A stretch of DNA of 33,032 nt. It comes from a virus. This document shows, one piece after another, positions 7,826 to 33,032 of this stretch. Location of the stretch: positions 1 to 33,032 of the IMG/VR virus record IMGVR_UViG_3300017744_000070, one strand, 5' to 3'. Both the position numbers and the translations under genes were made by a program. Position 1 is the stretch's first letter. Every line of letters starts with the position of its first letter. Under the pieces are notes generated by a model. That model was not told the DNA's origin, did not search any database, and was given only the letters and a program-made list of their open reading frames with translations.

Positions 7826-8593
7826 ATGTTTGGATATCAAGTACTAGGTTTTGGTGCAGGATCAGGAAAAAAATTATACAACGTTAGGTATTTAGTTATA
7901 GCTGCCGGCGGAGGCGGAGGCGGTGGACCCGGATCTGCAACTTCAGGCGGTGGCGGAGCAGGCGGATACCGTACATTAGCTTGTAAAACTTTTGAAGTTG
8001 AAGCTTGTGAATCTTACACTGTAACAGTTGGTGCTACACCAGGTGCTACATCAGCAGGTAGCAATAGCGCTTTTTCTTGTATAGCATCTACAGGCGGAGG
8101 AGTTGGTGGTAACCCAGGAGGTACTAACACTCCACAAAACGGAGGATCAGGAGCAGGTCCAGGCGGAACTGGAAATGCTGGAGGATACTCTCCTCCTGAA
8201 GGAAACCCAGCGCCCGGCGGTGGCGGAGGCGGAGCTGGAGGACCTGGCTCAGGAACTACAGGCGGACCCGGAGCTGTATCAAATATTGAAGGTTCTTGTA
8301 CAACTTACGCTGGAGGTGGCGGAGGTGGTGCAAATGGTGCAAATGGTGGACCAGGAGGCGGCGGCCGATCTGTTCACAGTAGTAACCCAGCAATCAACGG
8401 CTCAAACGGCTTAGGTGGCGGCGGAGGAGGTCATATGGGCCCTCCAGGACCACACGCAGGCGGCTTAGGTGGATCAGGAAGAGTTGTTATTAGAAGACTT
8501 ACAGCTTCTTCTTGTACAACATCAGGATCAGTAACAACAAGTGGGGCAGATACTATTCACACTTTTAACTCATCAGGGACATACGTAGCATAA
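7826..8593 (+). CDS. Glycine-rich tail-tip / adhesin-like protein (255 aa)
   Basis: The protein is dominated by Gly runs (27-34, 41-47, 131-140, 163-168, 177-180, 197-202), as in Gly-rich fibre-tip domains that pack as polyglycine-II helices (for example gp38-type adhesins of T-even-like phages). Residues 17-25 (LYNVRYLVI) and 219-224 (RVVIRR) frame the Gly-rich core like the standard 'glycine-rich domain' of fibre tips. Pro-rich spots occur at 122-130 (SPPEGNPAP) and at 205-210 (GPPGPH). Five or more Cys residues (C53, C61, C85, C158, C230) could form disulfides. It has AAGGAG before the ATG, and its stop overlaps the next start (TAATG). It likely determines host range. Confidence 0.7.
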   Translation: MFGYQVLGFGAGSGKKLYNVRYLVIAAGGGGGGGPGSATSGGGGAGGYRTLACKTFEVEACESYTVTVGATPGATSAGSNSAFSCIASTGGGVGGNPGGTNTPQNGGSGAGPGGTGNAGGYSPPEGNPAPGGGGGGAGGPGSGTTGGPGAVSNIEGSCTTYAGGGGGGANGANGGPGGGGRSVHSSNPAINGSNGLGGGGGGHMGPPGPHAGGLGGSGRVVIRRLTASSCTTSGSVTTSGADTIHTFNSSGTYVA

Positions 8594-8898
8594 TGGCAAT
8601 TCATAGTTTCGCAAAATTAGATGATAACAATTTAGTTCTTACAACGCTTGCTGTAGATGATGCTGATTGTAACAATGGTGATGAAGCCACTGGAATTTCT
8701 TTTTTAACAAATCTTACAGGTTGGTCTAAATGGAAGCTTATCGATCCAGCACAAAAAGGAATTGCGATTGGTGGAACTTTTGATGAATCTGATGGAGATT
8801 TTAAACCAAATAAACCAGGTGATGATTATGTTTGGAATAGTGAGTATAAAATTTGGAGATATCCAGACGATATAGCAGCGGGTAAATTACCCGAATAA
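8593..8898 (+). CDS. Small fibre-associated hypothetical protein (101 aa)
   Basis: MAIHSFAKLDDNNLVLTTLAVDD is the start of a small protein found next to tail fibres in many marine and cyano-phages. Family-like traits are the GISFLTNLTGWSKWKLID stretch, an IGGTFDESDGDF segment and a C-terminal aromatic tail (YKIWRYPDD). The ATG shares a base with the preceding stop (TAATG), so it is translationally coupled to the glycine-rich tip gene. It could be a fibre chaperone or a small virion component; the true function is not established. Confidence 0.55.
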   Translation: MAIHSFAKLDDNNLVLTTLAVDDADCNNGDEATGISFLTNLTGWSKWKLIDPAQKGIAIGGTFDESDGDFKPNKPGDDYVWNSEYKIWRYPDDIAAGKLPE

Positions 8899-8921: not shown

Positions 8922-9482
8922 ATGAAAGAAAAAGTTTTAGAAAAAAAGATAGCTTACACAGGTGAAGTTACTTTTCCTAATAAGGATAGATTTCCAAGAG
9001 AGGTTATAGCTGGCTCAGTATTAGAAAGTTTTTATCTAACTAATAAAAGAAGAAATAATAATCCAACAGATAGTAGATATGAAGACTATTCTGTTCGTCA
9101 CTCTATAGAAAAAACAGCTTTAAATACTTACTTTATTGATTATTTAGTTGCGTTGTACAAATATAATGCGGTGCCAACAGAGTCGTGGGGTAATTATTTA
9201 ATGCCTAATGAAAGAACACAAACAAGAAATAATTTTCAATACAAAGATTTAAGTTACATACCTTCTTGTCAAGCGATCTATGGAGCATCAATTGAAAACA
9301 GTATTGATGTTGTTTTAGAAATAACTCCATACAAAAAACATATTTTTAAATTAAAAAATAACGATTACGTTATTTTTGATGCGGACATCAATTATCACAT
9401 AGGTAAAAACAATTCACACAAACCTGCTATATTACTAACTACTTTGTTTGCAGAGTCAAATGACATAGGACAGTTCCTGTAA
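8922..9482 (+). CDS. Hypothetical protein, first gene of the oxygenase cassette (186 aa)
   Basis: This protein is not recognised. It begins MKEKVLEKKIAYTGEVTFPNK and has an aromatic middle (YSVRHSIEKTALNTYF, then IDYLVALYKY). Its C-terminal half alternates hydrophobic strands (SIDVVLEITPYKKHIFKL, NDYVIFDADINYHIGK, KPAILLTTLFAE), which could be a double-stranded beta helix like its neighbours. However, no HxD iron motif is visible; only a possible distal His in NYHIG. It may therefore be a catalytically inactive relative of the oxygenases or an unrelated beta protein. It ends one base before the next gene and shares the cassette's strong AT bias. Confidence 0.5.
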   Translation: MKEKVLEKKIAYTGEVTFPNKDRFPREVIAGSVLESFYLTNKRRNNNPTDSRYEDYSVRHSIEKTALNTYFIDYLVALYKYNAVPTESWGNYLMPNERTQTRNNFQYKDLSYIPSCQAIYGASIENSIDVVLEITPYKKHIFKLKNNDYVIFDADINYHIGKNNSHKPAILLTTLFAESNDIGQFL

Positions 9483-9483
9483 G

Positions 9484-10044
9484 ATGTATTATAAATTTCC
9501 TTATTGGTATTGGAACAACGGAGTTGATGATAAATGGATAAACAAACTTCATAAAGTAGCTAAAAAACAAAAACTAAGAGAAGCAAAAGTAGGTGATAAA
9601 CTAGAAGTAGATCCTAAGATGCGAGACACTAATATAGCTTTTCTTGATGAGCCTTGGATTCATCAAACACTTCATTCTTTTTTAACTAAAGCAAACGAGA
9701 AAGCAGGTTGGAACTTTGAGTGGTTTCGAACAGAACAAGTACAATACACGGAATATCTTTTAAATCAATTTTATGATTATCATGTAGATAGCCATGTTAT
9801 CCCAACTAAAAATAAAAGACAAAGAAAATTGTCCGCTGTAATTTCTTTAAATGATTCGTCAGAATATACAGGAGGCGAATTTAAGATGATGATAAGTCCA
9901 CAAGAAGTTAGAGAGATACCTGAATTAAAAAAGAAAGGAACTGTTATTGTTTTTCCTTCTACTATGTGGCACAAAGTAGAACCTGTTACTAAAGGTAAAA
10001 GATATAGTTTAGTGGCATGGGCAGAGGGTTTTGATTTTAGATAA
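9484..10044 (+). CDS. 2-oxoglutarate/Fe(II)-dependent oxygenase, PKHD/prolyl-hydroxylase type
   Basis: This is a 186-residue double-stranded beta-helix oxygenase. Members of the superfamily use 2-oxoglutarate, O2 and Fe(II) to hydroxylate or otherwise oxidise a substrate, releasing succinate and CO2. Visible ligands are His100-x-Asp102 (YDYHVDSH), distal His163 (STMWHKVEP) and 2-oxoglutarate-binding Arg173 (KGKRYSLVAW). The spacer strand LSAVISLNDSSEYTGGEF is typical of PKHD-type hydroxylases. All catalytic residues are present, so it is predicted active. It starts one base after the previous stop and its own stop shares a base with the next start (TAATG). Substrate unknown; proline, lysine or another peptide residue is possible. 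Confidence 0.88.
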   Translation: MYYKFPYWYWNNGVDDKWINKLHKVAKKQKLREAKVGDKLEVDPKMRDTNIAFLDEPWIHQTLHSFLTKANEKAGWNFEWFRTEQVQYTEYLLNQFYDYHVDSHVIPTKNKRQRKLSAVISLNDSSEYTGGEFKMMISPQEVREIPELKKKGTVIVFPSTMWHKVEPVTKGKRYSLVAWAEGFDFR

Positions 10045-10526
10045 TGAAAATCATACCTAATTTTTTAGAGCCTAACATCTTCAAAAAAATTAAAGAGACT
10101 ATTTTTTCTGATCAGTTTCCCTTTTATTATAGTGATCAAACCGGCTCATTAAGTGATGATTCTGATTTTATGTTTACGCATAAATTTTTTTCTGAGAACA
10201 GCCAACAGAGTGGTTATTTCAGTAATATTCTCATGCCTATACTAGGTAAATTAAATTTTAATTATTTGTTACGTGCTAAATTAAATTTTTATACAAGAAA
10301 AAATAAATTTGTTTATACAGAAATGCATAGAGACTTTGACGAACCTCATACAGTTGCTTTGTATTCATTAAATAAAAACAATGGCTTTACTTATTTTGAA
10401 GACACTAAAGAGAAAATACCATCGGTTGAAAATCAATTACTTTTATTTGATGGTCTTAGAAGGCATTGTAGTGTATCACAAACAGACACTAAGATTAGAG
10501 CAAACATAAATATTAATTTAAGATAA
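10044..10526 (+). CDS. 2-oxoglutarate/Fe(II) oxygenase, short marine-phage type (160 aa)
   Basis: A compact member of the oxygenase fold that begins MKIIPNFLEPNIFKKIKETI. Iron ligands read as His95-x-Asp97 (EMHRDFDEPH) and His141 (LRRHCSV), with Arg152 as the likely 2-oxoglutarate anchor in KIRANININ. The intervening VALYSLNKNNGFTYFED matches the 'YxNxNNGxTxFE' pattern of a subfamily common in marine phages. The gene at 15188 is a clear paralogue (same spacing, NNGYTKFE). All key residues are present, so activity is likely; substrate unknown. Confidence 0.82.
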   Translation: MKIIPNFLEPNIFKKIKETIFSDQFPFYYSDQTGSLSDDSDFMFTHKFFSENSQQSGYFSNILMPILGKLNFNYLLRAKLNFYTRKNKFVYTEMHRDFDEPHTVALYSLNKNNGFTYFEDTKEKIPSVENQLLLFDGLRRHCSVSQTDTKIRANININLR

Positions 10527-10527
10527 C

Positions 10528-11055
10528 ATGGAATCGTTTATATACTCGGAACAAATATCAGAAACGATGTGTGATAAGTTAGTAAAATTTTATAAAGATA
10601 ACCCTGATAGATATGTTCCTGATAAATACTGTAAAGGAAAAACTTCTAGTGAAATTATCTTAACTAGAAAAGATAGTATATACAAAGAATATAACAATCA
10701 TTTAAACAAAGTTTTACAAAGTTATTTAAAAACATATAAGCATGCTAACTACACTGTTAGATTTGAAATATGTCCAACTATAAAAATTCAATATTATAAA
10801 CCCGGCGATGGTTTTCCTGTTTATCATTTTGAAAATGATGGACAAGACGAATGTATAACAAGGCATTTAGTTTTTATGACTTACTTAAATACTGTGGAAA
10901 ATGCAGGAACTGAATTTAAATATCAAAAACTTAAAGTCAAAGCTCTTAAAGGTAAAACAGTTATTTGGCCTGCAGCGTGGACACATACACACAAAGGCAT
11001 TGTTAATAACAAAAAAGAAAAAATAATTATTACTGGGTGGTTTAATTTTGTATAA
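10528..11055 (+). CDS. 2-oxoglutarate/Fe(II) oxygenase with HxE iron motif (175 aa)
   Basis: The core reads IQYYKPGDGFPVYHFEND, matching the 'G-x-H-x-E' prolyl-hydroxylase-like group found in T4-like cyanophages. The iron motif here is His100-x-Glu102 in place of HxD. After TYLNTVENAGTEF and the strand GKTVIWPAAW comes THTHKG (His153 or His155 as distal ligand) and a C-terminal ITGWFNF, also typical of the group. The usual Arg is Lys here (Lys156 or a later Lys). The gene overlaps the next one by eight bases. It is probably active with a Glu ligand, as some relatives are; substrate unknown. Confidence 0.78.
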   Translation: MESFIYSEQISETMCDKLVKFYKDNPDRYVPDKYCKGKTSSEIILTRKDSIYKEYNNHLNKVLQSYLKTYKHANYTVRFEICPTIKIQYYKPGDGFPVYHFENDGQDECITRHLVFMTYLNTVENAGTEFKYQKLKVKALKGKTVIWPAAWTHTHKGIVNNKKEKIIITGWFNFV

Positions 11056-11572
11056 CACAATACAAGCACCTAATTTTTTTGATAAGCCATTAGAACTCAT
11101 TAAGTATTCTAAAACCCTTAAATTTTATGAAAGTGACAAAACAAAAGATGATCAAAAATGGCCCGGTGTTAGAACAAAATCTATACATTCGTTAAACCCT
11201 GATTTATTTTCATTTGTTATTAAGAAGGTTTTAAGTTATTATTATGATATGAAAGAATTAGAAGGAGCTGATATTATAGCTAGAGTTTATTTTCATAAAT
11301 CAGATAAAAAAACATCTGTTGGTTTTAATAAAACTAATACTATTCACACAGATGAAAAGAATGTATTGGCTGGTTTAATTTATTTAAATAAAGGTAATGA
11401 TATAAATACAGGAACAACACTGTACGATAAAGACAATAACGAAACTGCTATTTTTTCAAATTGCTTTAATACTATGATCTGTTATGATGCGCAAAAAAAT
11501 CATGGTCCAACTTCGTTAGACTGTGCTAGATTAACTGTCCCCTTTTTTATAGAAAGGATAACTAAAAAATGA
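11048..11572 (+). CDS. 2-oxoglutarate/Fe(II) oxygenase, HxD type (174 aa), TTG start
   Basis: The protein shows PNFFDKPLELIKYSKTLKFY and KWPGVRTKSIH, an N-terminal signature of a marine-phage/cyanophage oxygenase subfamily. Ligands are His100-x-Asp102 (NTIHTDEK), distal His152 (KNHGPTS) and Arg161 (CARLTVPFF), with the middle AGLIYLNKG ... TGTTLYD. The start is TTG at 11048, supported by the upstream GGGTGG and by the N-terminal pattern, since no later ATG keeps the NFFD motif. It overlaps the previous gene by eight bases and the next by four (ATGA). Predicted active; substrate unknown. Confidence 0.82.
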   Translation: MYNTIQAPNFFDKPLELIKYSKTLKFYESDKTKDDQKWPGVRTKSIHSLNPDLFSFVIKKVLSYYYDMKELEGADIIARVYFHKSDKKTSVGFNKTNTIHTDEKNVLAGLIYLNKGNDINTGTTLYDKDNNETAIFSNCFNTMICYDAQKNHGPTSLDCARLTVPFFIERITKK

Positions 11573-12222
11573 GTGATTTATATAATTCAATTTTATTTCC
11601 AACACCTGTATGGGATGTTCAGGACCCATCATTTGTAAAACCATTAATTAAAACTACTGATCCTTATATTAAAGAAGCTAAAGCAAGGAACAAAGAATCT
11701 AGCAAAATTAGGGACAAAGATTTAAAAACTAAATTAGGAGATTTTGGTTTATCTCACCACTCTACTAAATTATACGATGACCCACGATTTGAAGGTTTTA
11801 TTAATCTTATTATGGCTACAAGTAATAATTTTTTAAAGGCACAAGGGTTTGATTTAAGTGCATACAAATTAAAATTAAATGAGTTATGGGTTCAAGAGTT
11901 TGGATCTAAAGGCGGACATCATTCTTCTCACATGCATTATAATCAACACGTATCTGGATTTTATTTTTTAAAGTGTTCAGATAAAACATCTTATCCTATA
12001 TTTCATGATCCGAGACCTGGCGCTCTTATGACTAAGCTACCTTTAGAACAGAGCAAAGAAATAAAGATGGGGTCCTCTTCAATTAATTTTAAAATTCAAC
12101 CAGGAACTTTTATATTCTTTCCTGGTTACTTAACACATGAGTTTCCTATAGATTTAGGAATAGATCCTTTTAGATTTATTCATTTTAATGTTCAAGCGGT
12201 GCATTCAGATATTACAAAATGA
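11569..12222 (+). CDS. Putative 2-oxoglutarate/Fe(II) oxygenase, TIGR02466/2OG-FeII_Oxy_5 type (217 aa)
   Basis: The opening LYNSILFPTPVWDVQDPSF and the core LNELWVQEFGSKGGHHSSH-MHYNQHVSGFYFLK correspond to the TIGR02466 family (marine phage and bacterial putative oxygenases with an HxH-type 'HxHxxxxxSGvYY' motif). His121 and His123 stand where HxD is found in other members. The dibasic-Pro stretch FHDPRPGA follows. The C-terminal GTFIFFPGYLTHEF (His190) and FRFIHFNVQA with Arg202 complete the site. The start overlaps the previous stop as ATGA. A hydroxylase role is inferred from the fold; this family has no well-defined substrate known to me. Confidence 0.82.
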   Translation: MSDLYNSILFPTPVWDVQDPSFVKPLIKTTDPYIKEAKARNKESSKIRDKDLKTKLGDFGLSHHSTKLYDDPRFEGFINLIMATSNNFLKAQGFDLSAYKLKLNELWVQEFGSKGGHHSSHMHYNQHVSGFYFLKCSDKTSYPIFHDPRPGALMTKLPLEQSKEIKMGSSSINFKIQPGTFIFFPGYLTHEFPIDLGIDPFRFIHFNVQAVHSDITK

Positions 12223-12782
12223 GTTGGCAATATGACTATTGGTATGTAGAAAATTATTATTCTGCAAAAGAAAGAAAAAAGATTTCAGAATATATTGAAA
12301 ACAACCATACAGATATAGAAAAACCTGATGCAGTTGCTATGGACAAAAACAATGCATCTAAAAAGAAAGCAAATACTCTTCTCATTGAATGGGGAAAAAT
12401 TAAAAACATGTTAGGTAATTTAGAATCAAGCGTACACTCTTACAATCAACATAACTTTGGATATCTTTTATCTCCATTTAATAATCTAAGTAAATGTTTA
12501 TTAAACGTATACGATAGTAAAAAGAAAAGCGAATATGGGTGGCATTATGATGCCTCAAGATCTGATATTTATGATGTCAAGCTGACGGTTCTAGTTAATC
12601 TATCTGATAAGTATACGGGTGGAAAATTTTGTATATTTAATGGTGAGGAACATGTTGTAGAAGAATTTAAACCCGGCACGTTATTGCTGTTTAAATCTTA
12701 TATTAACCACAAAGTAACTCCTGTGTTGAGTGGCGTAAGGAAAACATTAACTCTACTTGCTACAGGACCTAAATTAAGATGA
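12219..12782 (+). CDS. 2-oxoglutarate/Fe(II)-dependent hydroxylase, PKHD type (187 aa)
   Basis: This is a canonical PKHD-type member. The iron site is His109-x-Asp111 in YGWHYDAS. The middle VKLTVLVNLSDKYTGGKFCIF matches the family's 'LNDxYxGGxF' pattern. The distal ligand is His164 (YINHKVTPV) and the 2-oxoglutarate anchor Arg174 (GVRKTLTLLATGP). The N-terminus begins SWQYDYWYVENYYSAKER, a pattern typical of phage-borne hydroxylases. All residues are intact. Four-base ATGA overlaps at both ends couple it to its neighbours. It most resembles the genes at 9484 and 13441, but they are far too diverged to be recent duplicates. Substrate unknown. Confidence 0.88.
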   Translation: MSWQYDYWYVENYYSAKERKKISEYIENNHTDIEKPDAVAMDKNNASKKKANTLLIEWGKIKNMLGNLESSVHSYNQHNFGYLLSPFNNLSKCLLNVYDSKKKSEYGWHYDASRSDIYDVKLTVLVNLSDKYTGGKFCIFNGEEHVVEEFKPGTLLLFKSYINHKVTPVLSGVRKTLTLLATGPKLR

Positions 12783-13444
12783 GTTTTAAAAAAAACAAAT
12801 ATCAAGTTGTAAAAAATGTTGTTTCAAAAGAAACAGCAGAACTTGCTTTTAATTATTTAAAGATGAGAGAGGCCGCAGAAAAAAAGCTACGTTATTACGG
12901 TATCGCTACAAAATGGTTTGGTATTTTTGATGATCCACAAGTTCCCAACTCTTATGCTATTTACGGAGATTATTTAATGGAGACATTATTAATAAATACT
13001 TTACCTTTTATAGAAAAGAAAACTTCAACAAAATTAGTTCCAACGTATGCGTACACAAGACTATATAAAAAAGGAAATATTTTACATAGGCATAAAGATA
13101 GAGTTAGCTGTGAAATATCTTCTACAATGAATCTTGGTGGTGATGATTGGCCTATTTATATTAATTCAAAAGAAAACATAGGTTTGCCAGAAGTTGATGG
13201 GGGTAAGAAAGGTATTACCGCATCTAGCAATGCAAAAGGCACCAAAGTAAATTTAAAACCTGGAGACATGTTATTATATCGAGGAGTAGATTTAGAACAT
13301 TGGAGAGAGCCTTTTAAAGGTAAGTTATGTGGTCAAGTGTTCTTTCATTACAATGATAAAAATGGACCTTTTAAAACTAAAAATATGTTTGATGGTAGAT
13401 CTGTTTTAGGATTACCACAAGACTATATAAATGTGAAATTATGA
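12779..13444 (+). CDS. 2-oxoglutarate/Fe(II) oxygenase, LxxHxDR-type (221 aa)
   Basis: The central motif ILHRHKDRVSCEISSTMNLG is a hallmark of a marine phage and cyanobacterial oxygenase group ('LxxHxDRxxCExSxT'), with His105-x-Asp107 as iron ligands. After the PIYINS insertion and a Gly/Asn-rich loop, GDMLLYRGVDLEHWREPF supplies the distal His174. QVFFHYND follows as the closing strand. The anchoring basic residue is not obvious (Lys181 or Arg176 are candidates). The N-terminal half is longer than in the neighbours. ATGA overlaps at both ends. It is predicted to be a hydroxylase of unknown substrate. Confidence 0.83.
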   Translation: MSFKKNKYQVVKNVVSKETAELAFNYLKMREAAEKKLRYYGIATKWFGIFDDPQVPNSYAIYGDYLMETLLINTLPFIEKKTSTKLVPTYAYTRLYKKGNILHRHKDRVSCEISSTMNLGGDDWPIYINSKENIGLPEVDGGKKGITASSNAKGTKVNLKPGDMLLYRGVDLEHWREPFKGKLCGQVFFHYNDKNGPFKTKNMFDGRSVLGLPQDYINVKL

Positions 13445-14043
13445 TAATTGATACAGATAAATATATACAAGTATATTCTAATTGTTTTGATAAAGTTATT
13501 CTAAAAGAAACGATTAAAGAGTTACAGTCGTTAAAAACAATTAAGAAAAGCCCCTCTGAAAATATTAGTAATTCACATTGGGAATCTCATAGCTGGTATA
13601 ATCCCACAGAAAAAACACTTGAGGCTCGTAAAGATGGAAAAGAATTAGAGTCAACCGGAAAGACAGTAAAACACCATGATGTTATTATGAAAGTATTATT
13701 TAATTATATTCTTAAATATGTACAAGATTTAAAGCATAAATCTTTTTATGGGTGGACAGGCTATACTCCAATCTTATTTCATAGATATAAAAAAGGAACT
13801 ACCATGGCATCGCACATAGATCACATCACAAGTATTTTTGAAGACAAAAAAGGTGTTCCAGTTTTAAGTGTTGTGGGGCAACTAAATGACTCTTTTGAAG
13901 GAGGAGAATTTGTAGTATTAGATAAAACAATAAAGATGAAAGCAGGAGATTTATTAATCTTTCCTTCAAATTTTATATTTGAACATCAGGTAAAAAAAAT
14001 AACTAAAGGAACTCGTTTAAGTTTTATAAGTTGGGTTTATTAA
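13441..14043 (+). CDS. 2-oxoglutarate/Fe(II)-dependent hydroxylase, PKHD type (200 aa)
   Basis: Iron ligands are His125-x-Asp127 (MASHIDHITS) and His182 (FEHQVKK); Arg192 (GTRLSFISWVY) anchors 2-oxoglutarate. The middle strand LSVVGQLNDSFEGGEFVVL and GDLLIFPSNFIFEH are the standard family pattern. The N-terminal region (residues 1-100) is Lys/Ser-rich with SHWESHSWYNPTEKT and has no clear relative in the window. It overlaps the preceding gene by four bases and directly abuts the halogenase-like gene (TAA followed by ATG). Predicted active; substrate unknown. Confidence 0.88.
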   Translation: MIIDTDKYIQVYSNCFDKVILKETIKELQSLKTIKKSPSENISNSHWESHSWYNPTEKTLEARKDGKELESTGKTVKHHDVIMKVLFNYILKYVQDLKHKSFYGWTGYTPILFHRYKKGTTMASHIDHITSIFEDKKGVPVLSVVGQLNDSFEGGEFVVLDKTIKMKAGDLLIFPSNFIFEHQVKKITKGTRLSFISWVY

Positions 14044-15201
14044 ATGAAGATAGCAGTAATAGGAACAGGCACAGTTGGAGTAATGTCAGTTTTACATTTT
14101 TTAAAATATATAGAAAAGGCAGAAGTAACTTGCATATATAATCCTAAGAAAAAAATACTAGGCATTGGTGAAAGCAGCAATGTTAACTTACCCTCTTTGT
14201 TATGGGAAGCCGCTAACTATAATGTATTTATTGATTCTAAAGAACTAAGCTCAACTGTAAAGCTAGGCGTGCATTATAAAAATTGGAGAAAAAAAGATTT
14301 TATAAGTCCCATTCTGCCGACTCATTATGCGATGCATTTTGATAACTTTGCTTTGTCAGAAAAAATGTTTAGTAGAGCTAAAAAGATTTATGGAAAAAGA
14401 TTTAAAATATTAAACAAAGATATTAAAGAATTAAAACAAAATGATAAAGAGGTTACCGTTTTATTTACAAAAGGTAAAAGCACTTATGACTATGTAATAG
14501 ATTGTAGAGGTTATCCTGATGATTATTCTAACTACCATATGATTACTTCTCTTCCCATTAACAGAGCGTTTGTTAATCTTATTCCTGAACCAGGTACTTG
14601 GGATTATACTTATCACTATGCACATAAAAATGGTTGGATGTTTGGTATACCATTAACACACAGACAAGGATGGGGTTATTTATTTAATGACAACATAACT
14701 ACAGAGCAGGAAGCAGTTGATGAGATTAACGAAATATTTAAATCAAATAAAACTAAAAAAGATTTAAGGGATTTTAATTTTAAACCATACAGAGTAAAAA
14801 GTTTTTTAAATAATAGAATTATTAAAAATGGAAACAGAGCAATATTTTATGAACCTATGGAAGCATTATCCGGTGTGTTTTATGATTTTGTTAATAAATG
14901 TTTTTTTGATTATATTCATAATGATATGGATCAAGAAACTTTGAATATACTTCTTGATGAGAGAGCAAAACAATATGAAAATTTTATAGCTTGGGTTTAT
15001 AATCAAGGATCTATCCACAACACAAAGTTTTGGAAAAATGCAAATAAAATTACTACAGAGCATCTTACTAACAATCCTATATGGGAGAGAACAAAAAAAC
15101 ATTTAAATAAAACTCCGTATAAAGATGACTTGTTTCAAACATGGCCTTTTGGTAAAATATCATGGGACATATTATTAAAAGGATTTAATGCAAGTTTATA
15201 A
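14044..15201 (+). CDS. Flavin-dependent (tryptophan-type) halogenase-like protein (385 aa)
   Basis: This FAD-binding protein of the flavin-dependent halogenase superfamily would use reduced FAD, O2 and halide to make hypohalous acid. It carries the dinucleotide motif GTGTVG (7-12), a GEAT-like GIGESS (40-45), Lys73 in TVKLGVHYKNW at the position of the catalytic Lys of PrnA/RebH, VIDCRGY (151-157), and GWMFGIPLTHRQGWGYLF, equivalent to the WxWxIP motif (Trp198, Phe200, Ile202, Pro203: one Trp replaced by Phe). EPMEALSG matches the later 'EPLEatS' block. At 385 residues it is shorter than the roughly 500 usual for bacterial enzymes. A cyanophage halogenase (VirX1) is known, so a viral halogenase has precedent. 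Its neighbours are all 2OG oxygenases; the substrate is unknown. A flavin monooxygenase without halide use is possible. Confidence 0.82.
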   Translation: MKIAVIGTGTVGVMSVLHFLKYIEKAEVTCIYNPKKKILGIGESSNVNLPSLLWEAANYNVFIDSKELSSTVKLGVHYKNWRKKDFISPILPTHYAMHFDNFALSEKMFSRAKKIYGKRFKILNKDIKELKQNDKEVTVLFTKGKSTYDYVIDCRGYPDDYSNYHMITSLPINRAFVNLIPEPGTWDYTYHYAHKNGWMFGIPLTHRQGWGYLFNDNITTEQEAVDEINEIFKSNKTKKDLRDFNFKPYRVKSFLNNRIIKNGNRAIFYEPMEALSGVFYDFVNKCFFDYIHNDMDQETLNILLDERAKQYENFIAWVYNQGSIHNTKFWKNANKITTEHLTNNPIWERTKKHLNKTPYKDDLFQTWPFGKISWDILLKGFNASL

Positions 15202-15682
15202 AAATTTTATAGATCAAGTAAGGTTTGATGATTTAGTCGCCATAATGTCATCACCTCAATTTGCATGGTACTATAATCCTGTATTAGACAAAGAGGATTT
15301 AGATCCAAATGTTAAACAAAATTTTCAATTTACTCATACATTTTTTAATTTTAACAGAGTACAATCTGAGTATTTTGATTTGCTAACACCTATCTTTATA
15401 AAGATAAAACCTATTGCATTAGTAAGAGTTAAGGCTAACTTACTTCTTAATACCGATAAAATAGTTGAGCACGGTATGCATGTAGATTTTAAAAACCCCA
15501 AAGTTACAACAGGTATCTTTTATATAAATACTAACAATGGTTACACTAAATTTGAAAATGGTAAAAAAATTAAAAGCATTCAGAATCAATATATAGAGTT
15601 TGATTCACAGCTTAAACACACAGGTACAAGTTGCACTGATGCAGAAAAAAGACTTGTTATAAATTTTAATTATATTAAGTGA
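15188..15682 (+). CDS. 2-oxoglutarate/Fe(II) oxygenase, paralogue of the gene at 10044 (164 aa)
   Basis: MQVYKNFIDQVRFDDLVAIM opens a compact oxygenase. Iron ligands are His98-x-Asp100 (HGMHVDFKNP), distal His144 (QLKHTGTS) and Arg155 (EKRLVINFNY). GIFYINTNNGYTKFENG aligns with ALYSLNKNNGFTYFED of the gene at 10044, and both share the 'NxQFTHTFFN/FMFTHKFFS' segment before it, so they are paralogues. It overlaps the halogenase-like gene by 14 bases and the next gene by four (GTGA), making it part of the same transcript. Predicted active; substrate unknown. Confidence 0.84.
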   Translation: MQVYKNFIDQVRFDDLVAIMSSPQFAWYYNPVLDKEDLDPNVKQNFQFTHTFFNFNRVQSEYFDLLTPIFIKIKPIALVRVKANLLLNTDKIVEHGMHVDFKNPKVTTGIFYINTNNGYTKFENGKKIKSIQNQYIEFDSQLKHTGTSCTDAEKRLVINFNYIK

Positions 15683-16011
15683 CAATAGTAGAACGATTCT
15701 CCAAACACTTAACCGCTATAGAATATCCAAAAGAAAAAACTTCTTGGAACATAGCGGGCATAATAAAAGGACAAAATGCTTTTTACAGATTTGACGTTAG
15801 AGATATGTTTACATTACCTGATAAGGGACCTGTTCAAAGTGGGCATCTCAATTCACAAGCTCAAAAAATGGTTCTTGAAGGTAAAAAAGAATGGCTTATT
15901 TTAGATCTTGAAGAGCTTCATAAACATATACGCAGAGAAAAGAAGACCGAAGTATACATAAACGATTTGATCTCAGATCTAGAATGGACTATATTTTTGA
16001 CAAAAAAATAG
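15679..16011 (+). CDS. Hypothetical protein, last gene of the cassette, GTG start (110 aa)
   Basis: The gene starts with GTG inside the preceding stop (GTGA). The protein contains TAIEYPKEKTSWNIAGIIKGQNAFYRF and a C-terminal stretch of charged and aromatic residues (LEELHKHIRREKKTEVYIND, then DLEWTIFLTKK). It has no HxD motif and no membrane segment, and it is not recognised. Its tight coupling to the oxygenases suggests it works with them, for example as a partner or substrate-binding protein, but there is no direct evidence. The next gene at 16026 has its own strong ribosome binding site (GGGGAG), so the cassette probably ends here. Confidence 0.5.
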   Translation: MTIVERFSKHLTAIEYPKEKTSWNIAGIIKGQNAFYRFDVRDMFTLPDKGPVQSGHLNSQAQKMVLEGKKEWLILDLEELHKHIRREKKTEVYINDLISDLEWTIFLTKK

Positions 16012-16025
16012 TATAGTGGGGAGAT

Positions 16026-17978
16026 ATGGCATTAAAAAAAGTAAAATTTCAACCAGGCTTTGATAAACAAGGAACTCCCGCTGCCGCTCCAGGTAAGTGG
16101 GTAGATGGAGACTTTGTTAGATTTAGATATGGCATCCCTGAAAAGACTGGGGGTTGGCAACAGTTAACCAATGATCAAAATACTTTGCCTGGTGTTGCGA
16201 GAGCTCAACACACATGGACATCTTTAGCTGGAGAGAAGTATGCAGCTATAGGAACGTCACAAGGTTTATTCTTATATTATGGTGGTGCTTTTTATGACAT
16301 TTCACCTTTGGATTCAGCCATAGCGGGAACAGGAACTTTTACAACTTCAGCAGCAGCTGGTGCTACAGTAACCATTAATAAAACTGGACATGGCTTAGAA
16401 GCAGGAAGATACATTACTTTATCCTCTGTCTCTATGGGATCTAACACAACGTTGACAGCTGATGATTTTACTACTTACGCTTTTGAAGTTTTAACCACAG
16501 CAACTAATTCTTTTACTATTAGTCTAACTAACCCTGCAGCTGGTGTTACAACAACAGAGAACAATGGAACAGGAATGGCTGCGGGTGGATCTTGCACCAT
16601 TAATCCTTACGCTGTTATTGGACCCACAACTCAAACTCTTGGTTATGGTTGGGGCACATATCTTTGGGGAAACTCTACATGGGGTACAGAACGAGCAACT
16701 TCTAATGTTATTTTAGAACCAGGTAATTGGTCGTTAGATAATTTTGGAGAAACTTTAGTAGCTACAATAGCTAACGGTAAATCTTTTACTTGGGATGCTG
16801 GAGCTACAAACGCTAGAACAATAAGAGCTGCTCTCATGACGGGAGCGCCTACAGCTTCACGATTAACCATTGTATCTGAAAAAGACAGACACTTATTTCA
16901 TTTAGGAACAGAGACAACAATTGGAAATACTTCTACGCAAGATCCAATGTTTATTAGATTCTCTGATCAAGAGTCAACATCTGTATATCAACCAACAGCT
17001 ATCAACACAGCAGGAACATTTCAATTAGATAAAGGAAACAAAATTGTAGCTGCGGTTCAAGGTAAGGATTATATTCTAATTTTAACAGATCAAGCAGCTT
17101 ATGTTGCTCAATTTGTTGGACCCCCATTTACATTTAGTATTAGACAAGTAGGAACCAATTGTGGTTGTCTTGGACAACACGCTGTATCTTTTGCACAGGG
17201 CTCAGTATTTTGGATGGGTGTATCAGGAGGCTTTTTTCAATTCGACGGTACCGTTAAACAATTACCTTGTTTAGTTGAAGATTTTGTATTTACTACAGGT
17301 GATGGAAACTTGGGTTTAAACTTCAATGCTAGTGAAATTGTTTATTCAGGTCATAATAGTTTGTACACAGAAGTAAATTGGTTTTATCCAAAATCAGGAT
17401 CTACACAAATTGATAGAATTGTTACTTATAATTATGGTGAAGCAAGTTGGTACACAGGATCTTTAGATCGAACAACATATCAAGATGCCGATGTTTTTAC
17501 AGCACCTTATGCAACCGATTACATACCAAAAGATCAAAGCGGAACTAATGACCCGTCTGACGTTCCTTTATTTCCTATATCAGGAATTACTAATACTTAT
17601 GGGTCTACCGTCTATTACGTCCACGATATAGGCACAGATCAAATTAACAGCACAGGTACAAGTGCCATTGCTGCGTTTATTAGATCCTCTGACTTTGATA
17701 TTGATGACGGAGAATTTATAATGTCAATGAGAAGATTTATTCCTGACTATAAACAAATTGTAGGTAACTCAAAAATTTCATTGTTTATAAGTGACTTTCC
17801 TTCTGAGACTCAAACTGTTTCACCGTTAGGACCATTTACAATTACCAGTACTACAAAGAAAATAGATACTCGAGCAAGAGGAAGATTGCTTAGTGTAAAA
17901 ATAGAAAATGAATCAGTGGGAGAGACTTGGAGATATGGATCTTTAAGACTTGATGCACAACCTGATGGTAGAAGATAG
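16026..17978 (+). CDS. Tail protein, P22 gp10 / T7 gp12-like (650 aa)
   Basis: MALKKVKFQPGFDKQGTPAA, GKWVDGDFVRFRYGIPEKTGGW is the start typical of packaged-DNA-stabilisation/tail-nozzle proteins in marine podoviruses. These sit below the adaptor ring. Residues about 105-190 hold an inserted beta domain with NKTGHGLEAGRYITL ... FEVLTTATNSFTI, a common phage surface module. Residues 205-220 contain GYGWGTYLWGNSTWG, the same Trp block as in the repeats of the gene at 4993. The C-terminal half has many beta strands (QGKDYILILTDQAAYVAQF, FWMGVSGGFFQFDG) like a beta-propeller. GGGGAG precedes the ATG. The exact family is uncertain; a tail-tube-like role is favoured. Confidence 0.6.
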   Translation: MALKKVKFQPGFDKQGTPAAAPGKWVDGDFVRFRYGIPEKTGGWQQLTNDQNTLPGVARAQHTWTSLAGEKYAAIGTSQGLFLYYGGAFYDISPLDSAIAGTGTFTTSAAAGATVTINKTGHGLEAGRYITLSSVSMGSNTTLTADDFTTYAFEVLTTATNSFTISLTNPAAGVTTTENNGTGMAAGGSCTINPYAVIGPTTQTLGYGWGTYLWGNSTWGTERATSNVILEPGNWSLDNFGETLVATIANGKSFTWDAGATNARTIRAALMTGAPTASRLTIVSEKDRHLFHLGTETTIGNTSTQDPMFIRFSDQESTSVYQPTAINTAGTFQLDKGNKIVAAVQGKDYILILTDQAAYVAQFVGPPFTFSIRQVGTNCGCLGQHAVSFAQGSVFWMGVSGGFFQFDGTVKQLPCLVEDFVFTTGDGNLGLNFNASEIVYSGHNSLYTEVNWFYPKSGSTQIDRIVTYNYGEASWYTGSLDRTTYQDADVFTAPYATDYIPKDQSGTNDPSDVPLFPISGITNTYGSTVYYVHDIGTDQINSTGTSAIAAFIRSSDFDIDDGEFIMSMRRFIPDYKQIVGNSKISLFISDFPSETQTVSPLGPFTITSTTKKIDTRARGRLLSVKIENESVGETWRYGSLRLDAQPDGRR

Positions 17979-18470: not shown

Positions 18471-18642
18471 GATAAAATGCGAAACTGTTTATACGTGGCG
18501 TAACACGAAAACAGGAGAAGTTTTTAAAGAAGAGAAAGCAGGACCCGATATTGTAAAAGACTGTACAGTAAAGGTAGATCCAAAAGGACTAGAAATAATA
18601 CAGAAAGTAATGCAACAACAGAATGATAAACCAAAATCCTAA
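18460..18642 (+). CDS. Small hypothetical protein (60 aa)
   Basis: MTTKIKCETVYTWRNTKTGEVF is followed by a Lys/Asp-rich tail. It starts inside the end of the previous gene and its last 20 bases overlap the glycosyltransferase gene. Double overlap and continuity with the operon support it as real. No domain is recognised; the two Cys residues (C7, C35) are widely spaced and do not make a zinc ribbon. Function unknown. Confidence 0.6.
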   Translation: MTTKIKCETVYTWRNTKTGEVFKEEKAGPDIVKDCTVKVDPKGLEIIQKVMQQQNDKPKS

Positions 18643-19555
18643 AGGTGGGACTGAACTACAATTAGAATACCTATCTAAATACGTTGATAAAGACTTATTA
18701 GACAAAGTACAGATTACAACATCTGTGCCTGAAAAGATTCCATTACATCCAACTAAACCGAATGTATTATGGCAAAAGAATTCTTGGGATCAGCCCAATA
18801 TCTACCCCTGGTTTAATGATCCCAAGAATACCAACAAATACGATATGTACGTATTTAATTCTCATTGGAACTTAGAACAATTTCGTAAAGTATTTAAGAT
18901 GCCTTTAGATAAATGTACTGTAATTAAAAATGGTATTGATGAAATACCTATGAGAAAACCTTATCAAAAAGGTGAGCCCATAAAGCTTATTCATCATTGC
19001 ACTCCTTGGAGAGGACTATCTGTATTGCTTGGTGCTATGCAACTTGTAAAGAGTGATGTAACTCTAGATGTATATTCTAGCTGTGAAGTATATGGAAAAG
19101 AATTTGCTGAAAAGAATGATCCTCAGTATCAAGGTTTATATGATCAAGCTAAATTATTAAAGAATGTAAATTACATAGGATACAAACCTAATAGTTATAT
19201 TAAAGAACATTTAAAAGATTATCATATGTTTGTTTACCCAAGTATCTGGGAAGAGACTTCTTGCATCTCGGCCATTGAATCTATGGCTGCGGGTCTTTAC
19301 TGTGTGCTCACGGACTTCGGAGCTCTTTATGAAACTTGCGCTGAATATGCTTTGTACATTCCTTTTGATAATAACTACAAAGCTTTATCTCAAAAATTTG
19401 CTTACGCTATTGATGCGGTCGTACCAACACTATCCGACCCTTCCTTACATGAACATTTAATGTTACAATCAGAATACGCAAGAAAGTATTATGGTTGGTC
19501 TAAGCAAGCTGTCAACTGGAAACGAACATTGGAAGGATTACTAAATGCAAAATAA
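18623..19555 (+). CDS. GT4-type glycosyltransferase (310 aa)
   Basis: This is a GT-B-fold enzyme that would transfer a sugar from a nucleotide sugar to an acceptor. The N-terminal MINQNPKGGTELQLEYL contains the GGTE loop of GT4 enzymes. VIKNGIDE (100-107) and PIKLIHHCTPWRGLSVLLGAM (119-139) match the inter-domain linker and start of the C-terminal domain. YPSIWEETSCISAIESMAAG contains the E-x7-E motif (Glu211 and Glu219) that binds the nucleotide sugar. It is shorter than typical GT4 enzymes (about 350-400), mainly because the N-terminal domain is small. It overlaps the next gene, a GT-A-type enzyme, by 11 bases. It could glycosylate virion proteins, host surface sugars or phage DNA; the target cannot be told. 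Confidence 0.8.
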   Translation: MINQNPKGGTELQLEYLSKYVDKDLLDKVQITTSVPEKIPLHPTKPNVLWQKNSWDQPNIYPWFNDPKNTNKYDMYVFNSHWNLEQFRKVFKMPLDKCTVIKNGIDEIPMRKPYQKGEPIKLIHHCTPWRGLSVLLGAMQLVKSDVTLDVYSSCEVYGKEFAEKNDPQYQGLYDQAKLLKNVNYIGYKPNSYIKEHLKDYHMFVYPSIWEETSCISAIESMAAGLYCVLTDFGALYETCAEYALYIPFDNNYKALSQKFAYAIDAVVPTLSDPSLHEHLMLQSEYARKYYGWSKQAVNWKRTLEGLLNAK

Positions 19556-20408
19556 TGAACCTATATGGTTTGGTGAAGGTGTAGAAACAATAGACCTAAC
19601 GAAAAAATCTACGATGATAAACCCTAAATATAAAATTATGGTATGCACCCCTATGCATGGTGGAGCAAGTATTCATTATGTACAAGCTATGCTTAAATTT
19701 CAACAAGCCTGTATCATAAATAATATTGTAGTCAGCTTTACTTTACTTAAATCATCACTTGTTCAACAAGGAAGAAATTTATGTGTGGCTGATTTTATTG
19801 GCCATAAAGATAACTATACTCATCTTTTATTTATAGACTCAGATATTGATTTTCAACACAAGACTATTTTTACGATGTTGGAGAAAGACAAGGATATCGT
19901 AGCTTGTCCCTATCCTATGAAGTTTATAGATTGGGATAAGATGTTTAGAAAGCTTCAAAGACATGGGGCTAAAGATGCTGATTATATGTCTAAGTTAGGT
20001 TTTACTTTTCCAATTAAAATGAAAGATCCTAAGAAGTTTAATGTGGAAGAAGGATTAGTAGAAGTTACACACGCTCCCACAGGATGTATGCTAATTAAAA
20101 GAAGTGTTATTGAAAAGATGATAGAGGCTCATCCAGAATTAGAGATCTATCAACCTACGTTTATCAATGGTAAAGAAACCAAAAAACCTAATATGTATAA
20201 TTTATTTGAGTGTTTACATGACCCTAAAACTAAAAGATATTTTGGAGAAGACTTTGGCTTTTGTCAAAGATGGTTGGAAATGGGCGGTAAAACTTATCTT
20301 TATGTGTTAGACTACATTACCCATGTAGGAGATCATCAGTATTGTGGTCGTTTTTGGGATGAACTAACGGGCCTCAAAACAGTTGACCCTGTTAAAAAAA
20401 TCAAATAA
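19545..20408 (+). CDS. GT-A-fold glycosyltransferase (287 aa)
   Basis: YKIMVCTPMHGGASIHYVQAML begins the nucleotide-binding half. FIDSDIDF holds a DxD motif (Asp98-Ser-Asp100) that binds the metal and nucleotide sugar, as in GT2-like enzymes. Later residues VEVTHAPTGCMLIKRSVIEKM and FGEDFGFCQRWLEMGG resemble the acceptor-side 'ED' block of GT2 members, supporting an intact active site. The C-terminus ends GDHQYCGRFWDELTG. It overlaps the GT4 gene, so the two probably act in one sugar-modification pathway. The substrate is unknown. Confidence 0.75.
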   Translation: MQNNEPIWFGEGVETIDLTKKSTMINPKYKIMVCTPMHGGASIHYVQAMLKFQQACIINNIVVSFTLLKSSLVQQGRNLCVADFIGHKDNYTHLLFIDSDIDFQHKTIFTMLEKDKDIVACPYPMKFIDWDKMFRKLQRHGAKDADYMSKLGFTFPIKMKDPKKFNVEEGLVEVTHAPTGCMLIKRSVIEKMIEAHPELEIYQPTFINGKETKKPNMYNLFECLHDPKTKRYFGEDFGFCQRWLEMGGKTYLYVLDYITHVGDHQYCGRFWDELTGLKTVDPVKKIK

Positions 20409-31352: not shown

Positions 31353-31748
31353 ATGTTAGGATCTATAAACACACCTATAAACAAAGGTGTATCTTCAGTA
31401 GTCTATGTAATACAAGAACTACCTGGAACTAGAATGGGAGCTCCAAAATTCAATATTATGGGGGCAAGCAGGTATGGTAATATAGTAACACTATTACCTG
31501 AGAACTCACAGATTATATTATCACCAGGCCCATTAATTTATAAATTAAGAAAATTATTAAAAGACTATAAATCCACAGACTATTTATTATTGACAGGAGA
31601 TCCTGCAATTATAGGTGCAGCGTGTTCTATAGTTTCTGATCTTACAAATGGTAGATTCAATCTATTAAAATGGGATAGACAAGAAAAAATGTACTATCCA
31701 ATAGAAATCAATCTATACGAGAAAGGTGAGATTGAAGAAAAATCTTGA
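31353..31748 (+). CDS. Hypothetical phage protein (131 aa)
   Basis: MLGSINTPINKGVSSVVYVIQ begins a protein with a compact alpha/beta layout. The conserved-looking parts are VVYVIQELPGTR, YGNIVTLLPENSQIILSPGPLIYKL and DYLLLTGDPAIIGAACSIVSDLT, which is a common marine-phage protein of unknown role. AAAGG lies upstream of the ATG; an ATG five bases earlier hits a stop at once. It is the first plus-strand gene after the divergent promoter and probably early. It has no HxD, Walker or nuclease motif. Confidence 0.65.
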   Translation: MLGSINTPINKGVSSVVYVIQELPGTRMGAPKFNIMGASRYGNIVTLLPENSQIILSPGPLIYKLRKLLKDYKSTDYLLLTGDPAIIGAACSIVSDLTNGRFNLLKWDRQEKMYYPIEINLYEKGEIEEKS

Positions 31749-31774
31749 CATAGGATATTAATCCATTATATATA
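31745..31774 (+). promoter_or_regulatory. Strong sigma70-like promoter before the early genes
   Basis: A perfect -35 box TTGACA at 31745-31750 is followed by TATATA at 31767-31772 (spacer 16) or 31769-31774 (spacer 18). It lies just at the end of the 31353 gene and before the AAAGGAG site of the gene at 31799. It is the best promoter match in the window and would drive the genes from 31799 onward using host RNA polymerase. Confidence 0.75.
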
Positions 31775-31798
31775 ACCCTATGAAAGGAGAAAATAAAA

Positions 31799-32344
31799 AT
31801 GATAAATCTCGAGGAAGACAAGTTAGAGTCGTTAGCAAATGTTAATGACGCTAAATCTTTATCTGCGCAATGTGTAAAACTTCAGGCAACTGAAACAGAT
31901 CTCAAAGCTGCAGAAGAACAAGTCAAAAAACTAAAAAAAGAGGTAGACCATTTATCTGGTGAAGTCATCCCAACGATGATGCAAGAGATGAATTTATCTA
32001 CTTTAAAATTAGCAGACGGTTCCGCTGTTGAAGTGAAACCCGTCTACGGTGCTTCTATTCCTATTGCAAAAAAGGAAGAGGCATTTAACTGGCTTCGTAG
32101 TAATGGCCTAGGGGACCTTATTAAAAATGAGGTAACCGTTTCCTTCGGTCGTAACGAAGATAACAAGGCGGCAGAATATGCTGACCTTGCACAAGGTCAA
32201 GGGTATCAACCTGTCCAGAAATTAAAGGTTGAACCTATGACACTTAAAGCATTGGTTAGGGAGCGTATCGAAGCTGGACAAGATATGCCCTCTGACCTAT
32301 TTAACGTGTTCGCAGGAAACAGAACAAAAATAACAAGGAAATAA
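31799..32344 (+). CDS. Conserved phage hypothetical protein, coiled-coil N-terminus (181 aa)
   Basis: MINLEEDKLESLANVNDAKS is followed by a coiled coil (LKAAEEQVKKLKKEVDHLSGEV, residues about 36-60). The C-terminal half, GLGDLIKNEVTVSFGRNEDNKAAEYADL and MTLKALVRERIEAGQDMPSDLFNVFAGNRTKI, is a block seen in many phages next to a single-stranded-DNA-binding-like protein. AAAGGAG precedes the ATG by eight to nine bases, under the TTGACA promoter. A replication or recombination role is plausible from the neighbours but unproven. Confidence 0.6.
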   Translation: MINLEEDKLESLANVNDAKSLSAQCVKLQATETDLKAAEEQVKKLKKEVDHLSGEVIPTMMQEMNLSTLKLADGSAVEVKPVYGASIPIAKKEEAFNWLRSNGLGDLIKNEVTVSFGRNEDNKAAEYADLAQGQGYQPVQKLKVEPMTLKALVRERIEAGQDMPSDLFNVFAGNRTKITRK

Positions 32345-32349
32345 GAAAA

Positions 32350-33032
32350 ATGAGCAAAGAACAGCTAATGAAAAAGACTAGTGCAGGTGCACTAGCCGTA
32401 TCTAACCTAGAGGCAGATGCGAATATGGGAATGGGAAACATAACTCAAGAAGATCTTGCGTTACCATTTCTTAAGATCCTTGGACAACTTTCACCGGAAG
32501 TTAACAAACGAGACGGTAAGTATGTCGAAGGGGCAACACCTGGCATGATCTACAATACAGTTACAGGTGATTTGTTTGATGGTGAGAAAGGTATTCAAGT
32601 AATACCTTGTTACTACAAACTAGAGTATGTTGAATGGAAAGACAGAGGTAAGGATGGATCGGGAGCTCCGGTGAACATTTATCCTTCTTCAAGTGATATA
32701 CTTTCAAAAACAACTAGGGGTGGGGACTTCAAAGATAGATTACCAAACGGTAATTATATTGAGAAGACTGCACAACATTTTGTTATTGTTAGTGGAGACT
32801 CTCCAGCAACAGCGTTGATCGCTATGAAATCTACTCAGTTAAAAACTAGTAGAACTTGGAATAGTATGATTCAACAAATTAAGCTGAAAGGTAAAGATGG
32901 AAAACTCTTTACTCCAGCTGCGTTTAGTCATCAATATCATTTAAAAACTGTGCAACAGTCTAACGACAAAGGCACATGGTTTGGATGGTCCGTAAGTAAA
33001 ATTGGAACTGTGCAAGATGGTGCTCTTTATTC
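32350..33032 (+). CDS. Conserved phage protein, possible ssDNA-binding or recombination protein (3' end cut)
   Basis: The frame is open from the ATG at 32350 to the window end (227 complete codons). The start reads MSKEQLMKKTSAGALAVSNL; the body carries LPFLKILGQLSPEVNKRDGKY, GATPGMIYNTVTGDLFDGEKGIQVIPCYYKLEYVEW, and ALIAMKSTQLKTSRTWNSMI. This is a widespread phage family located beside recombination or replication genes and sometimes annotated as ssDNA-binding; I recall the pattern, not a structure. AAGGAA upstream suits the ATG. The tandem placement with the gene at 31799 supports a DNA-metabolism role. Confidence 0.6.
   Translation, partial: MSKEQLMKKTSAGALAVSNLEADANMGMGNITQEDLALPFLKILGQLSPEVNKRDGKYVEGATPGMIYNTVTGDLFDGEKGIQVIPCYYKLEYVEWKDRGKDGSGAPVNIYPSSSDILSKTTRGGDFKDRLPNGNYIEKTAQHFVIVSGDSPATALIAMKSTQLKTSRTWNSMIQQIKLKGKDGKLFTPAAFSHQYHLKTVQQSNDKGTWFGWSVSKIGTVQDGALY

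Follow-up and report, generated by a model that had tools for sequence, protein, structure and literature searches.

What would a virus do with a long, unbroken run of oxygenase genes? The question is raised by the stretch of DNA analysed here (the window), a 33,032-base virus record from IMG/VR (IMGVR_UViG_3300017744_000070), in which positions 8922–16011 had been predicted to encode nine 2-oxoglutarate (2OG)/Fe(II) oxygenases and a halogenase in one compact cassette. We find this array to be an extreme case of a module widely distributed among marine phages, made up of a glycine-rich fibre gene (Gly), a small conserved gene (c101) and three to ten oxygenase-fold genes, and we suggest, with somewhat less than even confidence, that in late infection the module finishes the adjacent fibre, or another tail protein, by oxidation and here possibly by halogenation as well. 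All open reading frames (ORFs) of the array are present on the plus strand (A–K and HAL; Table 1), with junctions of +1, −1, +1, −8, −4, −4, −4, −4, 0, −14 and −4 bases in order from A to K. The tight packing is therefore as the original prediction described it; the single coupled transcript thought to follow from it gained no backing from promoter and terminator scans of the array, in which sites were no more numerous than in shuffled sequence.

Nine of the products, B to J with HAL set aside, are 2OG-Fe(II) oxygenases by sequence, as predicted, with intact residues and a fold recognized by Pfam, by profiles or, for H, by predicted structure; their catalysis is a prediction. Above the Pfam cut-off, B, D, G and I match PF13640 and F matches PF13759; for E and J the PF13640 match is weak (E-values 0.025 and 0.01, respectively), and C and H matched no Pfam model. 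PHROGs assigns B, D, G and I to phrog_61, C and J to phrog_274, E to phrog_1644, F to phrog_81 and H to phrog_2954. The diversity first noticed is thus real, although getting from these five to "at least six subfamilies" requires dividing the four phrog_61 members, as the tree supports. In profile comparisons E and C/J align at 86.7% probability, while the alignment of C/J to B/G/I, which brings their HxD and distal His into register, has only 27% probability; C/J, E and H profiles run against Protein Data Bank (PDB) sequences returned nothing meaningful. The iron triad and a basic residue are conserved in the family alignments of C/J, E, H, B/G/I, D (as HxE) and F (as HxH). Across all loci collected, 645 of the 653 distinct family members have the pattern H-x-[DEH]...H...[RK], compared with 75 of 470 other ORFs similar in length, which places it far beyond chance. 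C, E and J, recognized from weak Pfam or profile evidence together with the motif, are the least secure members. The name DNA endonuclease V, attached to phrog_274, was rejected for C and J, as no Pfam match supports it; the name "minor coat protein" of phrog_1644 (E) is likewise unsupported, the sequence features being oxygenase-like.

H belongs to a phage family, phrog_2954, that widely goes by the name ferrochelatase. Its structure, predicted from 40 relatives (predicted local distance difference test, pLDDT, 89), matches PHD2, P4H, SnoN and P3H1 at Z 14.5–15.9; the triad is intact in the family alignment; and comparison with Pfam and NCBIfam gave no ferrochelatase match, with none at an E-value of 1 or below in Pfam. 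The 2OG-oxygenase barrel, the triad and the missing domain match together rule out a ferrochelatase, so that, judged on the predicted structure, the name is a misannotation and the real identity that of a 2OG-Fe(II) oxygenase. The correction touches published ecology, two papers having used the name (PMC9599517, PMC11561400). In phage S-SCSM1 (MK867354.2, ~216920–218266) an H-family and a phrog_61-type oxygenase domain share one 455-residue frame, which hints that H and the phrog_61 oxygenases may act as a functional pair.

Gene A, left out of the original count, is a tenth member by fold: a structure predicted from 33 relatives (pLDDT 85.8) matches P4H and PHD2 at Z ~15 over 160–176 residues. 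The iron triad is absent throughout its family alignment, and the motif rate (13 of 68) equals the background ORF level, while the ratio of nonsynonymous to synonymous substitution rates (dN/dS) is 0.21–0.30. Where present, A is usually the first gene of the cassette. Its modelled fold is best read as that of a pseudoenzyme with a putative binding or scaffolding role. Because neither A nor H aligned significantly to B/G/I as a profile, the assignment of both rests on structure; their best-matching folds include protein hydroxylases (P4H with EF-Tu, PHD2, P3H1) and small-molecule enzymes too.

The halogenase call was right at the family level: HAL matches PF04820 (Pfam E 7.3e-30), and a profile of 18 HAL relatives matches LooH (E 6.3e-35), RebH (8.6e-34), PrnA and VirX1, in a range extending to 9e-30. 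Shared with these enzymes are an invariant GxGxxG, an equally invariant K73 aligned with the RebH catalytic Lys K79, and a Glu-Pro region. HAL differs from them in lacking ~70 residues between query positions 83 and 85 and in reading WMFGIP in place of WxWxIP, with its W, M and F invariant across the family. The Glu aligned with RebH E357 is present in HAL but is Ser or Gln in distant relatives. From its sequence, HAL could be either a halogenase or some other flavin oxygenase. Relatives at least 49% identical lie mostly inside oxygenase cassettes. As a separate observation, 25 of 54 halogenase genes directly neighbour an oxygenase, oxygenases making up 17% of genes, and at six loci (L036, L037, L038, L052, L054 and L055) two different halogenase-family genes lie near or adjoin one another, with oxygenases beside them or close by.

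The virus as a whole is an HTVC023P-type pelagiphage, with capsid, helicase and structural genes conserved and in order: relative to the SAR11 phage HTVC027P, its nearest relative in culture, the partial capsid is 81%, a structural protein 60% and the helicase 62% identical, and the genes are colinear. Given the capsid identity, the host is probably SAR11. SAR11 hosts are the most abundant bacteria of the ocean. A distant DNA search of phages found only short matches of 60–80% identity. The array itself recurs in other IMG/VR records, at 99–100% identity in L001, L002, L003 and L018 and at 77–98% in L004–L007 and L031; since the closest of these are independent contigs, an assembly break or chimaera, one of the doubts attached to the original prediction, is ruled out. 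Nearly all array genes are under purifying selection, with dN/dS mostly 0.05–0.30 (against L007, L031, L005, L010, L011 and L009); the exception is J against L007, at 0.56 with a synonymous divergence (dS) of 0.08. Along the array, dS against L007 ranges from 0.08 (J) to 0.66 (I), with 0.59 in HAL, the gene preceding J, and this unevenness suggests recombination inside the array. For J (15188–15682, against L007:8928–9422) the low dS is a sign that such recombination was recent.

The best pairs within the array are only 36.8% (C/J) and 24% (B/G) identical, and in trees B, C, D, G, I and J each fall beside genes from other viruses, not with one another. Recent tandem duplication is thereby ruled out, and sequence comparison indicates that the array grew, as first proposed, by collecting different lineages. 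Content and orientation vary among relatives: L008/L009 hold A, a B gene, F, H, HAL and a second F-type gene; L010 and L011 hold six to eight oxygenases; in L015, L016 and L019 the core lies on the opposite strand; and HTVC027P has three reverse-strand genes in the equivalent slot, all matching oxygenase profiles and two of them clearly.

That slot has a fixed place in related marine viruses, its order being glycine-rich fibre gene, c101, oxygenases, then tail or structural genes. A survey conditioned on c101 together with relatives of H, C/J or HAL, in which some slots come from near-identical viruses, found 95 places where two or more oxygenases follow c101; Gly lies directly upstream of c101 in 89 of the 90 with a known upstream gene. 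Complete slots hold 3 oxygenases (27 slots), 4 (17), 5 (8), 6 (3), 7 (2), 8 (1), 9 (7) or 10 (1). Most related cassettes lack a halogenase, and in most small ones one PF13640-type gene persists as a core together with F and H. The link between fibre and cassette spans the different backbones of HTVC023P and HTVC033P, and it has a counterpart in T4-like marine phages: in seven of the nine such genomes with a PF21722 match over the cut-off (HTVC008M, Mosig, S-CAM8, S-MS29, P-RSM4, ACG-2014b and S-RIM50; genomes of 141–179 kb), that glycine-rich match lies 1.2–3.6 kb from an H-family gene, a proximity with P about 8e-8 if the genomes were independent, which, sharing ancestry, they are not. The exceptions are S-CREM1 (8 kb) and S-SCSM1 (31 kb); S-RIM32 has a sub-threshold glycine-rich match only, 14 kb away, and S-H9-2 and S-P4 have no PF21722 match. 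The dedicated tailoring system originally envisaged fits the fixed position after a glycine-rich fibre gene; a purpose common to all the genes is a hypothesis.

If the cassette does finish a fibre, the Gly product would be its probable substrate; here we infer substrate and timing as well as the roles of A, c101 and HAL. In late infection the oxygenases would act on newly made fibre, each one using Fe(II), 2-oxoglutarate and O2 to hydroxylate a different residue; HAL would oxidise or halogenate aromatic side chains, using reduced flavin from the host; and A, being non-catalytic, would hold the substrate or a partner, by analogy with CRTAP, the non-catalytic partner of collagen prolyl 3-hydroxylase. 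Collagen machinery (P3H1–CRTAP, and the collagen hydroxylase and glycosyltransferase of mimivirus) likewise applies hydroxylases, a non-catalytic partner and glycosyltransferases to a Gly-rich fibrous protein. The resemblance is one of working principle, with P3H1 among the structural matches of H; the two are not homologous as systems, and the putative substrate here is not collagen. A literature search on hydroxyproline in virions of phages turned up one relevant paper, which concerns collagen-like proteins of E. coli prophages. From its position, c101 suggests itself as a fibre-assembly partner. In phage Pam3 a glycine-rich fibre tip recognises the host and needs a dedicated chaperone (PMC9608196); since c101 matched no solved structure in the PDB and has no detectable homology to that chaperone, we liken the two by position only. 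Enzyme turnover in the fixed slot would vary the chemistry of the host-binding surface. A bolder version, possible but more doubtful, is that of a combinatorial system: a slot that takes in three to ten interchangeable oxygenases along with a non-catalytic partner and, in some cases, a halogenase would diversify a glycine-rich receptor-binding fibre post-translationally, so that host-binding chemistry shifts by enzyme swap and not by fibre mutation alone.

Several observations weigh against fibre finishing. Because of the conditioning described above, the slot survey overstates how tight the fibre link is. S-CREM1 has its nine contiguous oxygenases ~3–8 kb from the nearest glycine-rich match (the H gene at 8.2 kb), and neither A nor c101 was found there, making this a run that lacks c101; in S-SCSM1 the oxygenases are dispersed and the H-family gene lies 31 kb from the glycine-rich match. 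HTVC027P carries a cassette yet has no PF21722 match, so any fibre link there would involve another fibre type. The number of oxygenases did not correlate with how much Pro, His, Lys or Asp the glycine-rich protein contains; the Asn count fell slightly with oxygenase number, and Arg alone correlated clearly and positively, among 40 uncorrected tests. Composition, compared with oxygenase number or with the presence of a halogenase, thus gave no interpretable signal. Nor can sequence reveal the substrates of 2OG oxygenases.

The alternative that survives best, unlikely as we judge it, is auxiliary metabolism, in which the oxygenases would deplete 2-oxoglutarate or change the host's handling of nitrogen, lipids or iron. 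Such roles have been proposed for cyanophage oxygenases (PMC3037559, PMC9602691 and PMC9599517), the dispersed genes of S-SCSM1 would suit them, and infection by HTVC027P raises iron-uptake genes (PMC12753301). One enzyme would be enough to drain 2-oxoglutarate, however, and nine lineages with one dead protein are a misfit; the cassette sits among tail genes, after a fibre gene, in unrelated backbones; and the iron and heme argument was built partly on the "ferrochelatase" that the structural model makes an oxygenase. We give a lower probability to host-directed modification, by which the enzymes would hydroxylate host translation factors, surface proteins or defence proteins during takeover: A and H are structurally close to the Pseudomonas P4H bound to EF-Tu, and many targets would call for high enzyme diversity, but this does not explain why the cassette stays linked to a fibre gene across backbones, and no defence-type gene was recognised in the window.

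Equally improbable, in our estimation, is a recombination hotspot where individually useful oxygenases accumulate with no common purpose. Its content and order do vary, with inversions in L015, L019 and HTVC027P, dS is uneven as described above, and every gene has relatives of its own elsewhere; an open hotspot should nevertheless gather other moron genes, whereas this slot is filled almost wholly by oxygenase-type genes, most small cassettes retain the core, and S-SCSM1 has H fused to a phrog_61 oxygenase. A halogenated, hydroxylated metabolite, made by small-molecule or free-tryptophan chemistry, is suggested by the tryptophan-halogenase family of HAL, by the title of the entry for phage halogenase VirX1 (PDB 6qgm), which has it iodinating diverse substrates, and by antibiotic-tailoring enzymes among the structural matches; with no scaffold-making gene, carrier protein or transporter recognised in the window, and no halogenase in most related cassettes, we think it has little chance of being right. 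TET- or AlkB-like modification of DNA or nucleotides is the least credible of all: it can call on a sub-threshold match of I to PF13532 (2OG-FeII_Oxy_2, AlkB type) and the nucleotide-metabolism class of C/J in PHROGs, against which stand best structural matches of prolyl-hydroxylase type, no DNA-modification partner gene recognised in the window and the lack of Pfam support for the endonuclease V name.

Parts of this system have been described before. Wittmers et al. report co-located oxygenases and "ferrochelatases" in HTVC023P-type phages, taking the latter as heme enzymes (PMC9599517), and in a time series the seasonal viruses proved enriched in both (PMC11561400). With HTVC023P and HTVC027P our virus shares phage group, slot and oxygenases co-located with an H-family gene, and in HTVC023P the glycine-rich genes are followed by A, one PF13640-type gene, F and H; these phages hold three or four enzymes against nine and a halogenase here, and the passages found in PMC9599517 draw no link between cassette and fibre. 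The number of genes, first seen as exceptional, is not unique. S-SCSM1 likewise has many diverse oxygenases in one phage, 24 genes (PMC9602691), though mostly single or paired and dispersed (in the 50 kb examined of 229 kb), and other marine contigs hold 8–10 in the equivalent slot. S-CREM1 has ten oxygenases in its genome (PMC9964418), including a nine-gene contiguous run of oxygenase type (OP535465.1, 59290–64780; L234) that contains an H relative and one gene annotated JmjC. By ORF numbering its tryptophan halogenase, ORF69, comes just before the run (PMC9964418), hence outside it, and the run is not directly beside a glycine-rich fibre gene. New here are the fibre-linked slot, the pseudoenzyme, the built-in halogenase, the reassignment of the "ferrochelatase" as an oxygenase and the range of up to ten genes, none of which was found in the literature searched, a body with few subscription papers and no preprints. 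Few unexplained genes of marine phages are as common as those for 2OG oxygenases, which tend to be catalogued as metabolic; the fixed link to a receptor-binding fibre across phage families offers a testable alternative, that they may be virion-maturation enzymes. If so, hydroxylated or halogenated phage fibres would be a new class of post-translational modification, and auxiliary-gene surveys would read differently.

Table 1. Genes of the oxygenase array and its surroundings (coordinates in the window).
Gene	Coordinates	Strand	Assignment and features
Gly	7826..8593	+	Glycine-rich fibre/adhesin-type gene, PF21722, Pfam E 2.2e-14
c101	8593..8898	+	Small conserved gene, phrog_7759, between fibre gene and cassette
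A	8922..9482	+	Putative pseudo-oxygenase; predicted double-stranded beta-helix fold without metal ligands
B	9484..10044	+	2OG-Fe(II) oxygenase (predicted), PF13640, PiuC-like; H100-x-D102, H163, R173
C	10044..10526	+	2OG-Fe(II) oxygenase-like, phrog_274; family keeps HxD and distal His
D	10528..11055	+	2OG-Fe(II) oxygenase (predicted), PF13640; H100-x-E102 form
E	11048..11572	+	2OG-Fe(II) oxygenase-like, phrog_1644; H100-x-D102, H152, R161
F	11569..12222	+	2OG-Fe(II) oxygenase (predicted), PF13759/TIGR02466 type; H121-x-H123, H190, R202
G	12219..12782	+	2OG-Fe(II) oxygenase (predicted), PF13640; H109-x-D111, H164
H	12779..13444	+	2OG-Fe(II) oxygenase (predicted), phrog_2954; H105-x-D107, H174
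I	13441..14043	+	2OG-Fe(II) oxygenase (predicted), PF13640; H125-x-D127, H182
HAL	14044..15201	+	Short-form flavin-dependent tryptophan-halogenase family; GxGxxG, K73, WxFxIP
J	15188..15682	+	Second phrog_274-type 2OG-Fe(II) oxygenase (predicted); H98-x-D100, H144, R155
K	15679..16011	+	Conserved 110-aa protein, in or beside many oxygenase cassettes
STR	16026..17978	+	Virion structural protein, phrog_3287; closes the slot
Glycosyltransferase	18623..19555	+	PF00534; after the slot, conserved in HTVC027P

Gene K matched no family in comparisons with Pfam, PHROGs and NCBIfam; it lies sometimes inside oxygenase cassettes rather than beside them (L190, L198 and L217). After the slot, at 18623–20408, come the glycosyltransferase gene and a phrog_1574 gene, 66% and 58% identical to their HTVC027P counterparts; that the glycosyltransferase might provide a follow-on or second modification step is speculation. 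In the SAR11 phage Mosig EXVC030M (MT647606.1, 39650–44735; L227) six oxygenase-type genes are followed by an annotated heme oxygenase and a phycocyanobilin:ferredoxin oxidoreductase, odd genes for a phage of a non-photosynthetic host. Towards the end of the window, at 31353–33030, three genes match Pfam families named for gp32–gp34 of the freshwater cyanophage Pam3.

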